NCBI RefSeq assembly: GCF_900141715.1
Contig: NZ_FQYK01000005.1
Coordinates: 1-64,000, forward strand
Source of the DNA: Algibacter luteus
GTDB taxonomy: Bacteria; Bacteroidota; Bacteroidia; Flavobacteriales; Flavobacteriaceae
Direction of reading: 5' to 3'
DNA: 64,000 nt
The notes beneath the pieces are model-generated. The model was given only the letters and a program-made list of their open reading frames with translations, made no database searches and was not told the origin of the DNA. Numbering within the stretch: position 1 is the stretch's first letter; every line of letters starts with the position of its first letter. Made by a program: the position numbers and the translations under genes. This document shows, piece by piece, positions 23,511 through 27,286 of the stretch.

Positions 23511-24503
23511 ATGAGTACAGCAGTAGCAGAAGGCAAAACTTGGGGAGGCGGTAACCAACCGTTAAAAGCAAGTTACGGTAAAATGATGATGTGGTTTTTC
23601 ATCGTATCAGATGCCTTAACATTTTCCGGGTTTTTAGCAGCTTACGGATTTTCAAGATTTAAGTTTATTGATGCATGGCCAATTGCCGATGAGGTGTTTA
23701 CTCACTTTCCTTTTTTACACGGTGTAGATGCGCCGATGTACTACGTAGCATTTATGACGTTTGTACTTATTATGTCGTCTGTAACCATGGTATTGGCTGT
23801 AGATGCTGGACATCATATGAACAAATCGAAAGTGACCTTTTATATGTTTTTAACTATAATTGGAGGTTTAATTTTCGTTGGTTCTCAGGCTTGGGAATGG
23901 AACACATTTATAAAAGGAGATTATGGCGCTGTACAAACTAAAGGTGGGAACATCTTGCAGTTTGGGCATTATGTTGAAAAAGACGGTGAGCAAGTTTTTA
24001 AGCGTGTAGCGGTAAAAGATTTTGCGGTTGCTACAGCACATAAAGATAGAACACAACACGAAAGAAAAAATGGACTTTGGTTTGTAAATGAAGGTACTTT
24101 GCCTAGTTATACAATGGATGAAGTTATTCATGGTTTGCAAGCAAATAAAGATATTTTAGTGCGTACTCAAATTATAAACGAGGATGGAGAAAAAACTGTT
24201 TTATCTAGAGGGGAGTCTTTAGATCAAATTATGAAGAATGGTAGATTGGTTGTTGAAGGTGCAAATCTTCATGTAAACGAATATGGGTCGCCACTATTTG
24301 CTGATTTCTTTTTCTTTATCACAGGATTTCACGGTTTTCACGTATTCTCCGGAGTTGTTATAAACATTATTATTTTCTTTAATGTTGTTTTAGGAACTTA
24401 TGAAAGACGCGGAAGTTATGAGATGGTTGAAAAGGTTGGACTGTATTGGCACTTTGTAGATTTAGTTTGGGTATTTGTATTCACATTCTTCTACCTAGTT
24501 TAA
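23511..24503 (+). CDS. Cytochrome c oxidase subunit III, long form with hydrophilic insertion
   Basis: The 330-residue product has the subunit III helices and ends KVGLYWHFVDLVWVFVFTFFYLV. Between the helix ending near residue 125 (GSQAWEWNTFI) and the helix starting near 260 (FADFFFFITGFHGFH) lies a hydrophilic stretch of about 110-130 residues containing KRVAVKDFAVATAHKDRTQH and SRGESLDQIMKNGRLVVEGA. This insertion is absent from the 193-residue paralogue upstream. Such long forms are seen in Bacteroidota. The role of the insertion is unknown to me. Subunit IV follows 52 bp downstream. Confidence 0.92.
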   Translation: MSTAVAEGKTWGGGNQPLKASYGKMMMWFFIVSDALTFSGFLAAYGFSRFKFIDAWPIADEVFTHFPFLHGVDAPMYYVAFMTFVLIMSSVTMVLAVDAGHHMNKSKVTFYMFLTIIGGLIFVGSQAWEWNTFIKGDYGAVQTKGGNILQFGHYVEKDGEQVFKRVAVKDFAVATAHKDRTQHERKNGLWFVNEGTLPSYTMDEVIHGLQANKDILVRTQIINEDGEKTVLSRGESLDQIMKNGRLVVEGANLHVNEYGSPLFADFFFFITGFHGFHVFSGVVINIIIFFNVVLGTYERRGSYEMVEKVGLYWHFVDLVWVFVFTFFYLV

Positions 24504-24555: not shown

Positions 24556-24936
24556 ATGGCACACGAGCATAAATTAGAAATATTTAGAGGTTTATTAAAA
24601 TTTAAATCGAATACTCAGAAAATTTGGGGTGTTTTAATTTTATTAACTATAGTTACAACCGTTGAAGTAGCATTGGGTATTGTGAAACCAGAGTGGTCTA
24701 TGGCTCCGTTTTTAGGCATGAAGCTTTTAAACTGGATATTTATTATCTTAACTATAGTAAAAGCATATTACATTACATGGGATTTCATGCACATGCGCGA
24801 TGAAACAAAAGGTTTAAGACGTGCTGTAGTATGGACAACCATATTCCTTATTTTATACTTAATATTCATCTTATTGCAAGAAGGTGGATATGTATTTGAT
24901 ATTTATGATAACGGTTATATAAAAAGAGACTTTTAA
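24556..24936 (+). CDS. Cytochrome c oxidase subunit IV family protein
   Basis: The 126-residue protein has three to four membrane helices and the prokaryotic subunit IV pattern (KIWGVLILLTIVTTVEVALG near the N-terminus, then FMHMRDETKGLRR and a final hydrophobic helix). It is a small accessory subunit of haem-copper oxidase. Position after the long subunit III and before a terminator supports the call. Confidence 0.88.
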   Translation: MAHEHKLEIFRGLLKFKSNTQKIWGVLILLTIVTTVEVALGIVKPEWSMAPFLGMKLLNWIFIILTIVKAYYITWDFMHMRDETKGLRRAVVWTTIFLILYLIFILLQEGGYVFDIYDNGYIKRDF

Positions 24937-24964: not shown

Positions 24965-24993
24965 AAAGGCGGTTTTTAAACCGCCTTTTTTTA
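24965..24993 (+). terminator. Terminator after cytochrome oxidase subunit IV
   Basis: AAAGGCGGTTT and AAACCGCCTTT form a tight stem followed by a T run. It lies 28 bp after the subunit IV stop. Confidence 0.88.
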
Positions 24994-25026: not shown

Positions 25027-25746
25027 ATGAATTTAAAGAAAGTAAGCAGATATGTAGTATTGGGTATTCTATTTTTTCTACCTGTTACTTTTTTGTTATT
25101 TCTATATCCTGCTACACATAATTATTCGCCATTGGATATTGTCAATGAATCGGTTTTAGATTTAGATAATTTTAGTTCGAATTCTGAAGAAAAGATACAG
25201 TTAAAAGATCATATTACCGTGTTGGGTTTTTTTGGAAATAATCCCATTGATAAAAACATTACAGCTTCCAATTTAAAAGAACTGGTTTATGATAAGTTTA
25301 AAGGATTTAAGCGCTTTCAAGTTGTTGTTTTAATGCCCAAAGGAACTGAAGAAGCAGTTCAAACATTAAAGCAAGAAATCAGTTCTTATGAGGATTTAAG
25401 ATTCTGGCACTTTGTGTTTGGTGAACCTTCTCATATTAAGCGCGTATTTTTTAGTTTAAAGAAAGAAGAGGATTTGTCAGAAGATTTAGCAACAGATCAT
25501 GTTTTTATTATAGATAAAGATTTGAATCAACGCGGACGAATAGACGACAGAACAGACAATGAAATAGAGAAGAATAAACCAGTGTATGGTCTTAATACCT
25601 ACGATTGCATAGAAGTGGCAGAAATTAAAAATAAGATGAGCGAAGATATGCGTATTCTCTTCACAGAATATAGACAAAAGCGTAAAGGAGAATTTAATTC
25701 TACAACAAGACGAGCGAGTGACTTAAAAACTGAAAACAATGAGTAA
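25027..25746 (+). CDS. Membrane-anchored SCO-like protein lacking the copper-binding cysteines
   Basis: I do not recognise a named family. The 239-residue protein has one N-terminal membrane helix (about 9-29), then a domain with a thioredoxin-like pattern: strand ITVLGFFGNNP, a helix, strand FQVVVLMP, and late strand DHVFIIDKDLNQRGRID. The last segment lines up with FALIDKNGFIRSRVV of the SCO protein encoded next. It has no CxxxC, and its only cysteine is near the C-terminus (YDCIEV). It overlaps the SCO gene by 8 bp, so the two are translationally coupled. I infer a catalytically dead SCO paralogue that may assist cytochrome oxidase copper insertion. Confidence 0.7.
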   Translation: MNLKKVSRYVVLGILFFLPVTFLLFLYPATHNYSPLDIVNESVLDLDNFSSNSEEKIQLKDHITVLGFFGNNPIDKNITASNLKELVYDKFKGFKRFQVVVLMPKGTEEAVQTLKQEISSYEDLRFWHFVFGEPSHIKRVFFSLKKEEDLSEDLATDHVFIIDKDLNQRGRIDDRTDNEIEKNKPVYGLNTYDCIEVAEIKNKMSEDMRILFTEYRQKRKGEFNSTTRRASDLKTENNE

Positions 25747-26482
25747 AAAAACAAATTATTCATACATAGGTATCGCCTTTATTGTTCTTGTTTTTGGTAT
25801 TATTTTTATTCCAAGAATAGTTGATAGAATATCAAACAACGATATTTCAAGACAAGAAAGTAGAAGCGATTTAAAAGAGGAGCAGGCTTTAAAAAAATCC
25901 GATTTAGTTTATATTTCTAATAACGGTGAAAATAGAAAAGTGCCTGATTTTTCATTTACAAACCAACATGGAGAAACAATAACTAATAAAGATTACGAAG
26001 GGAAAGTTTATGTTATTGAATTCTTTTTTACAACCTGCCCAACCATTTGTCCAAGAATGAATAGAAACCTTATTCAAATTCAGAATGAATTTAAAGATTT
26101 TGATGATTTTGGTGTGGCATCTTTTACAATAAACCCAGAACATGATACGCCAGAAGTTTTAAAAGCTTATGCTGAAAAATATGGAGTAACTAACCCAAAT
26201 TGGCATCTTATGACTGGAGATAAAGAGGCCATTTATAAACTCTCAAATGAAGGTTTTTATATATATGCAGCCGAAAATGAAAGTGTAGAAGGTGGTTTTG
26301 AGCATTCTGGAAATTTTGCATTAATAGATAAAAATGGATTTATAAGAAGTAGAGTTGTAAACGGAAATCCTTTAATTTATTACAACGGCATCACATCCGA
26401 GGCCGAAGCTGTTGATGAAGACGGTAAATCAGAAGAAATTAGTGCGTTAAAAGAAGATATTAAAAAATTGCTAAATGAGTAA
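25739..26482 (+). CDS. SCO family copper chaperone for cytochrome c oxidase
   Basis: The 247-residue protein has an N-terminal membrane helix (about 7-24) and a thioredoxin-fold domain with the copper/redox motif TTCPTICPRM and the later conserved histidine in GFEHSGNFALID. SCO proteins deliver copper to the CuA site of subunit II, facing the periplasm. The gene starts inside the end of the preceding SCO-like gene and is followed after 53 bp by a DUF420 gene, another oxidase assembly family. Confidence 0.93.
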   Translation: MSKKTNYSYIGIAFIVLVFGIIFIPRIVDRISNNDISRQESRSDLKEEQALKKSDLVYISNNGENRKVPDFSFTNQHGETITNKDYEGKVYVIEFFFTTCPTICPRMNRNLIQIQNEFKDFDDFGVASFTINPEHDTPEVLKAYAEKYGVTNPNWHLMTGDKEAIYKLSNEGFYIYAAENESVEGGFEHSGNFALIDKNGFIRSRVVNGNPLIYYNGITSEAEAVDEDGKSEEISALKEDIKKLLNE

Positions 26483-26535: not shown

Positions 26536-27063
26536 ATGCAAAAAGAAGTTTTAGACGATAAAAAATATAATAAACTTATTGTTGCCTTATCCATTATTAT
26601 TCCTGTAGCTGTTGCAATATTATTTGGTGTAAAAATAGATGTTGAACTCCCGGTATTTTTACCTCCAATTTATGCCGGAATAAATGCATTAACTGCATTT
26701 GTTTTAGTAATGGCTTTTGTAGCAATTCAGAAAAAGAAAATAAAACTTCATGAAAGGTTAATAAAATTTGCGATTGCCTTATCTGTGCTGTTTTTGCTCA
26801 TGTACATTGCATATCACATGACCAGTGATTCAACAAAATTTGGTGGGGAGGGTATTACCAAATATTTGTATTATTTTATTTTAATAACTCATATACTGTT
26901 GTCTATATTAGTTATTCCATTTGTTTTAATAACGTATGTAAGAGCCATTACTAACAATATTGAAAAGCATAAAAAAATAGCAAAAATCACATTTCCACTT
27001 TGGCTTTATGTGGCCATAACAGGAGTAGTTGTTTTTATTATGATTTCACCATATTACGTTTAA
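26536..27063 (+). CDS. DUF420 family membrane protein (CtaM-like oxidase assembly)
   Basis: The 175-residue protein has about five membrane helices and conserved membrane-facing histidines (KLHERLIKFA, YHMTSD, THILLS, EKHKKIAKITFPLWLY), the pattern of DUF420. Members such as CtaM are required to make active haem-A oxidase in Gram-positive bacteria. Here it follows SCO and precedes a small CxxC protein by one base, so a role in cytochrome oxidase assembly is likely but inferred. Confidence 0.85.
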   Translation: MQKEVLDDKKYNKLIVALSIIIPVAVAILFGVKIDVELPVFLPPIYAGINALTAFVLVMAFVAIQKKKIKLHERLIKFAIALSVLFLLMYIAYHMTSDSTKFGGEGITKYLYYFILITHILLSILVIPFVLITYVRAITNNIEKHKKIAKITFPLWLYVAITGVVVFIMISPYYV

Positions 27064-27064
27064 C

Positions 27065-27286
27065 ATGAAATACCGAATTGCCATATTTTTTCTATTTTTT
27101 TTCAGTTTTTTAGAAACTCATGCGCAATGTGCAATGTGTAGAGCTGTTTTAGAAAGTGAGGAAGGGCAAACGGCTGCAGAAGGAATTAACGATGGCATAG
27201 TGTATTTAATGGCGATACCTTATATTTTGGTTGCAGGAATGGCCTACTTTATTTATAGAAAATACAATACTGTAAAGAAAAAGTAA
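27065..27286 (+). CDS. Tiny CxxC membrane protein of the oxidase assembly block
   Basis: This 73-residue protein is unrecognised. It has a signal peptide (about 1-20, ending ETHAQ), then at once CAMCRAVLES, a short polar stretch, and one membrane helix (VYLMAIPYILVAGMAYFIY) ending in a lysine tail. The two cysteines would face the periplasm at the mature N-terminus if the helix anchors it. It begins one base after the DUF420 stop, so it is almost certainly cotranslated. Copper handling or thiol redox in oxidase assembly is an inference from the CxxC and its neighbours. Confidence 0.8.
   Translation: MKYRIAIFFLFFFSFLETHAQCAMCRAVLESEEGQTAAEGINDGIVYLMAIPYILVAGMAYFIYRKYNTVKKK

Follow-up and report, generated by a model that had tools for sequence, protein, structure and literature searches.

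What is an SCO homologue for when its copper site is gone? The question is raised by a gene, here called X, in the 64,000-nucleotide stretch of Algibacter luteus DNA that we analyzed as a whole (the window; contig NZ_FQYK01000005.1, positions 1 to 64,000), where it lies directly before a canonical SCO gene. A first-pass annotation, made from the sequence alone, had read X as a cysteine-less, SCO-like protein, perhaps a dead paralogue that partners SCO in CuA assembly. Our findings favor, with a probability of roughly 0.58, the idea that X is a pseudo-SCO kept as a putative dedicated, non-catalytic assembly factor of the CuA (aa3-type) cytochrome oxidase. This assembly-factor reading draws on the homology of X to SCO, its predicted fold, the loss of CxxxC and His, the selection on the gene, its fixed place, its co-occurrence with the oxidase and its absence from a second family, coded f2. 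The features of the pair in the window are as follows.

25027..25746, plus strand: X, copper-site-less SCO homologue of 239 amino acids (open reading frame with ATG start, profile, predicted fold)
Codons 25033..25104, plus strand: predicted N-terminal anchor helix of X, residues 3-26 (structure prediction, anchor comparison)
Codons 25243..25257, plus strand: X residues 73-77, opposite the CxxxC of SCO (alignment)
Codons 25507..25548, plus strand: X residues 161-174 (IIDKDLNQRGRIDD), opposite LIDKNGFIRSR of SCO (alignment)
Codons 25615..25683, plus strand: predicted C-terminal helix of X with an EYR motif, residues 197-219 (structure prediction)
25739..26482, plus strand: canonical SCO of 247 amino acids with CPTIC (C100, C104) and His189 (open reading frame, PF02630)

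Pfam gives nothing above its cut-off for X (the best entry is DUF7636 at 0.091), NCBIfam gives no match, and PF02630 does not match X even at E <= 1. Aligning a profile of 45 X proteins with one of 23 neighboring SCOs by hhalign yields a probability of 97.4 and an E-value of 1.3e-11 over 161 columns. With E-values of 2.2e-11 to 4.5e-22, the X profile also matches 17 'single' SCOs from other families of the order, so called because each is the sole SCO of its locus; their matches to the SCO profile are stronger. We take the family of the window genome to be Flavobacteriaceae because the named relatives belong mostly to Flavobacteriaceae genera. Eighteen of the 46 family genomes searched, which belong to a single genus, have a second X-profile match (2.4e-8 to 5.7e-5) directly beside X; this place is the SCO in G395 (L190), the one fetched of the 18. 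The resemblance of a late segment of X to SCO, pointed out in the first pass, holds in the alignment, where D163 of X pairs with D197 of SCO and is invariant in 67/67 rows. These comparisons indicate that X shares descent with SCO.

The structure of X predicted from 81 sequences (mean predicted local distance difference test score, pLDDT, of 85) arranges its strands and helices after the anchor as in thioredoxin-like proteins. Foldseek with this model returns human SCO1 at the top (3.2e-5), followed by a peroxiredoxin (4.6e-5). Setting the model, itself a prediction, against solved SCO structures places two bacterial SCOs first in the VIA rows, with Z 14.6 (root-mean-square deviation 2.7, 154 residues) and Z 13.8 (2.8, 153 residues). 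Further SCOs and other thioredoxin-like proteins rank below these (Z 11.1-12.6), which makes the fold a less firm pointer to SCO than the profile. Searching the PDB sequences with this profile gives weak matches only, the best being the thioredoxin-like protein AGR2 at E 0.08. In the model, X has an SCO-type thioredoxin fold rather than an unrelated one, in agreement with the thioredoxin-like pattern and the single membrane anchor (one predicted N-terminal helix) read earlier from the sequence.

At the copper site, none of 70 X proteins carries CxxC or CxxxC, and all 70 neighboring SCOs carry CxxxC and His. In 16 aligned family X rows, the column of the first SCO cysteine holds P, V or L, and that of the second holds N, I, F, K, Q, A or R; both columns are free of cysteine in these rows and in four X-like rows of other lineages. 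The copper His column reads A, S, Y, M, G or N in 16/16 family rows and is also non-His in the four X-like rows, and H158 of the window X occurs in 6/70 X proteins. Both cysteines and the His are retained in 20/20 partner SCOs, 17/17 single SCOs and 7/7 stand-alone SCOs. The absence of CxxxC noted in the first pass is thus general among the X proteins and extends to the copper His. The word 'cysteine-less' fits 38 of the 70 proteins; 30 have one cysteine and two have two, and the window X has a single non-conserved one, Cys194, found in 28/70.

We notice several related proteins around this site. A cluster SCO (L184:4655-5446) that belongs to a different family of the class keeps both cysteines and has Tyr at the copper His position, a change seen in one of three class-level cluster SCOs. 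The window genome encodes, on another contig (L229:1277-1951), a second, stand-alone SCO with CQTIC, and neither X nor an oxidase gene lies within the 3.3 kb fetched around it. Very divergent Cys-less proteins occupy the X slot at L185:4696-5403 and L225:5141-5884, and at L185 a small gene sits between the X-like gene and SCO. To judge by the Cys-less proteins of L185 and L225, more than one loss of the copper site is possible.

The place of X is fixed. It stands immediately before SCO on the same strand in 70/70 loci and in 80/80 loci of a second set (the best 80 of 579, which may share species with the first set), and the frequent occurrence of X away from SCO that would have spoken against a partnership was not seen. 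The neighbor is a canonical SCO, as had been claimed (PF02630 at 6.5e-31), and in the window the two reading frames overlap by exactly the 8 bp that the first-pass annotation gave. The overlap is not constant among relatives: the genes overlap by 1-20 bp in 33/70 loci, are separated by up to 50 bp in 30/70 and by 52-141 bp in 7/70.

The loss of catalytic residues would also be expected of a functionless, decaying duplicate. We therefore turn to selection, measured as the ratio of nonsynonymous to synonymous substitution rates (dN/dS) in 15 pairs of related genomes drawn from 110 loci, the genus itself being represented by the window genome alone. The ratio for X is 0.055-0.136 with a median of 0.080, and the median for SCO is 0.073; two of the pairs, L080/L119 and L006/L012, give identical values for X, SCO and DUF420 and seem to represent a single species pair entered twice. 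Across 45 X proteins, 11 alignment columns are invariant, and 189 of 199 family genomes retain X (profile search, E <= 1e-3). Because dN/dS is low and similar to that of SCO, the substitution pattern indicates that X is under purifying selection and not decaying, and we consider a decaying duplicate hardly credible.

The genomes that keep X also keep the oxidase. Subunit III is found at E <= 4e-25 in 189/189 X-bearing genomes. In the ten X-less genomes it has no match in five, a weak match in three (1.1e-7, 4.3e-12, 6.1e-7) and a strong match in two: G169, which is 77% complete in 460 contigs, and G180, in which a divergent Cys-less protein occupies the X slot.

The reverse situation is provided by f2, presumably Weeksellaceae, of which 24 genomes are among the matches listed, and more may exist among 79 further genomes of the set. 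COX2 is found in 0/24 of these genomes by a search that detected its positive controls, and subunit III in 0/24 by a search without a positive control. An SCO of the partner lineage is present in 23/24 genomes, scoring 207-224 bits with the partner-SCO profile, and two of these proteins, L186 (5228-5968) and L189 (5323-6045), fall in the partner-SCO clade with support of 99/98. The X profile finds X in none of the 24: four have no match, and the sole match in the other 20 (1.3e-8 to 6.8e-4) is the partner-lineage SCO. Since f2 is without the CuA oxidase, keeps SCO and has no X, X goes with the CuA oxidase and not with SCO. As 23/24 genomes retain the partner-lineage SCO while having neither COX2 nor subunit III, this SCO probably does something other than serve the CuA oxidase. 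Outside the order, 8/8 weak phylum-level matches to the X profile are SCOs with CxxxC, and no Cys-less X appears in the 392-genome sample.

On the other hand, several observations weigh against X as an assembly factor. Some COX2 match, in one case below the cut-off, is present in six of the ten X-less genomes (G169, G180, G081, G149, G151 and G128). G081, G149 and G151 are 66-87% complete and have no subunit III match. Incomplete or fragmented assemblies can explain four of the six, but not G128, which is 99% complete and encodes a lipoprotein SCO along with a CuA oxidase of a different type; X is therefore not required by every CuA oxidase. The missing positive control for subunit III in f2 counts here as well. 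The covariation of distances between X and SCO is not specific, with a partial r of 0.168 over 32 loci compared with 0.303 for X and subunit III. Subunit II of the window genome has an ordinary CuA motif and so gives no reason by itself for X. The Cys-less proteins of L185 and L225 are too divergent to establish one origin, and X-like tails also occur in stand-alone SCOs and in partner SCOs of other families (scores below), so the tail is not specific.

The value for subunit III is the highest partial distance correlation of X. Together with the tracking of the oxidase rather than SCO, and with one predicted anchor followed by one soluble domain, it is what one would expect if X were an accessory subunit that stays in the aa3 oxidase, or in the supercomplex that the oxidase forms with alternative complex III. 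The SCO fold would then have been reused as a structural periplasmic domain, with the anchor and the surface contacts alone under selection. The gene arrangement argues otherwise. In the window, the cluster begins with cyoE, two genes for subunit III and one for subunit IV, after which come X, SCO, DUF420 and the gene of a small CxxC protein. The assignments of cyoE and subunit III are in part presumed; a bo3 match backs the second subunit III.

23511..24503, plus strand: oxidase subunit III, second of two; the C-terminal part matches bo3 oxidase subunit 3 (sequence match)
24556..24936, plus strand: oxidase subunit IV (COX4_pro, 3e-16)
24965..24988, plus strand: intrinsic-terminator-like hairpin between subunit IV and X (hairpin scan)
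26536..27063, plus strand: DUF420 (CtaM-type) membrane protein (PF04238 at 8.6e-44)
27065..27286, plus strand: small CAMC protein, the motif directly following a signal-like stretch (conserved in the cluster)

A terminator-like hairpin lies in the gap between subunit IV and X in 53/70 loci, against a mean of 0 after shuffling. The five other gaps of the cluster contain such hairpins in 0/69, 0/70, 1/70, 0/70 and 0/68 loci, and these gaps are shorter, with medians of 1-42 bp versus 99 bp. In the window scan there are two hairpin sites versus 1.1 expected, which alone is no evidence. The conservation of the hairpin upstream of X means that X heads a unit of X, SCO, DUF420 and the small protein, apart from the subunit genes. 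For this reason we regard an accessory subunit as unlikely. No X-like chain is present in the PDB, which says little because the PDB search with subunit III gave only three bo3 sequences (E <= 1e-10), so that a close relative of this oxidase seems to be missing there.

The other members of this unit are as follows. The small CAMC protein has a tblastn match in 62/69 loci, with CxxC in 61/62, and no Pfam match above the cut-off; by its sequence it is a candidate copper or thiol protein of oxidase assembly. CtaM is a DUF420 protein, and active oxidase assembly in Staphylococcus and Bacillus requires it, according to the accessible portion of the source (PMC8239418). A PADLOC search found nothing.

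If X is an assembly factor, we speculate that it uses the old docking surfaces of SCO, namely the anchor and the C-terminal helix, and thereby holds subunit II or the nascent oxidase. Copper delivery, or reduction of the CuA thiols, would then fall to the neighboring SCO, which may form a heterodimer with X. In such a scheme the jobs of one ancestral SCO would be divided, with docking passing to X and copper to SCO.

In order to trace where X came from, we compared it with 20 loci that were picked from X-profile matches in the order's other families. At 17 of these, one CxxxC SCO lies among or beside oxidase genes, with subunit IV directly upstream in 16; two of these single-SCO loci are cut off, L216 upstream and L210 downstream. 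The remaining three (L208, L209, L225) have a Cys-less X-like protein and a separate SCO. The anchor helix of X resembles the anchors of the single SCOs, which score 10.6-30.8 bits with the X-anchor profile, compared with -4.0 to 2.4 bits for the family partner SCOs. With the X-tail profile, the single SCOs score 8.2-34.5 bits and the family partner SCOs -0.6 to 8.2 bits, and a form similar to the EYR motif of the X C-terminal helix is common to single SCOs. Anchor and tail scores reach 4.6 and 10.8 bits in partner SCOs of other lineages, 5.6 and 14.8 bits in stand-alone SCOs, and 13.2 and 9.0 bits in class-level cluster SCOs. The anchor score separates the SCO groups, and the tail score does so less. 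The X-like anchor and tail of the single SCOs therefore suggest that X succeeds the former SCO of this slot, and X probably continues the slot SCO of other families or a tandem copy of it.

In the tree, X forms one clade with the X-like proteins of L208 and L209 (support 100/99), on long branches. A narrow, recent tandem duplication, which places X, L208_Xo, L209_Xo and 16 family SCOs in one clade, is rejected by the approximately unbiased (AU) test (p 0.0013). A wide clade that unites X and the family SCOs with two f2 SCOs and with the partners from L208 and L209 is not rejected (AU p 0.551), nor is a clade of X with the single SCOs (AU p 0.404), which appears as a weak branch (65/44) in another tree. 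Long-branch rows were omitted, L225_Xo, L185_Xo and L187 in the narrow-form tree and also L208_Xo and L209_Xo in the wide-form tree. By these trees, X may be either a tandem copy from the neighboring SCO lineage or an older occupant of the slot. Two single SCOs of the family coded f65 (L223:4569-5321 and L227:4442-5197) have a four-Cys, zinc-ribbon-like insert of two CxxC pairs before NPVGSYDG.

Among known systems, the SCO1/SenC family (PF02630) resembles X in predicted fold, single anchor, late IDK..R segment and location in the oxidase cluster. X differs from it in being without CxxxC, the copper His and a PF02630 match. In the pairs human SCO1/SCO2 and P. denitrificans ScoA/ScoB, both members retain the copper motif, unlike X. 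These pairs recall X and SCO in having two SCOs per oxidase, as described in the available parts of two sources (PMC6696091, PMC9145763). Tested eukaryotic SCO homologues other than Arabidopsis HCC2 (AtSCO2) keep the copper motif as well, so far as the accessible text goes (PMC6307045).

By its description, HCC2 resembles X. It is a homologue of SCO that has no copper motif and exists alongside HCC1, an SCO competent for copper, and its loss leaves cytochrome oxidase activity unaffected, according to the sections available (PMC3971200, PMC6696091 for the former; PMC3971200 for the latter). In the excerpts we could consult, HCC2 complements a yeast sco2 stress phenotype (PMC6307045), and a review reports its interaction with a metallochaperone module, finds its activity without copper features very surprising and asks for its function (PMC6696091). 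HCC2 is eukaryotic and mitochondrial, whereas X is bacterial, sits in an oxidase cluster and is absent along with the oxidase in f2. The loss of the copper site in HCC2 and in X was likely independent. A role in redox stress or signaling apart from oxidase assembly, as proposed for HCC2, is improbable for X, which is tied to the oxidase cluster, disappears with the oxidase and has no conserved cysteine for redox chemistry.

The literature that we searched, with most subscription papers outside the search, contains no description of X or of a bacterial copper-site-less SCO. The accessible part of a Bizionia copper survey lists SCO proteins and nothing like X, and a word search for 'bacteroid' and 'flavobacter' gave no hit in the available text of a review of bacterial oxidase assembly. 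Copper-site-less SCOs are known from plants; X would be a bacterial instance beside a copper-competent SCO.

Beyond the assembly-factor reading, we tentatively suggest, as a possibility that we hold to be rather doubtful, that an ancestral SCO split into a catalytic SCO, which retains the copper and thiol chemistry and serves more than the CuA oxidase, and a docking-only pseudo-SCO for that oxidase. If true, this split separates genetically two functions that are joined in an ordinary SCO, and it could explain the activity of copper-site-less SCOs such as HCC2. For the family, a protein without a Pfam or NCBIfam match above cut-off gains a likely function, and a copper-free role of SCO, suspected from HCC2, becomes testable by gene removal in Flavobacterium.
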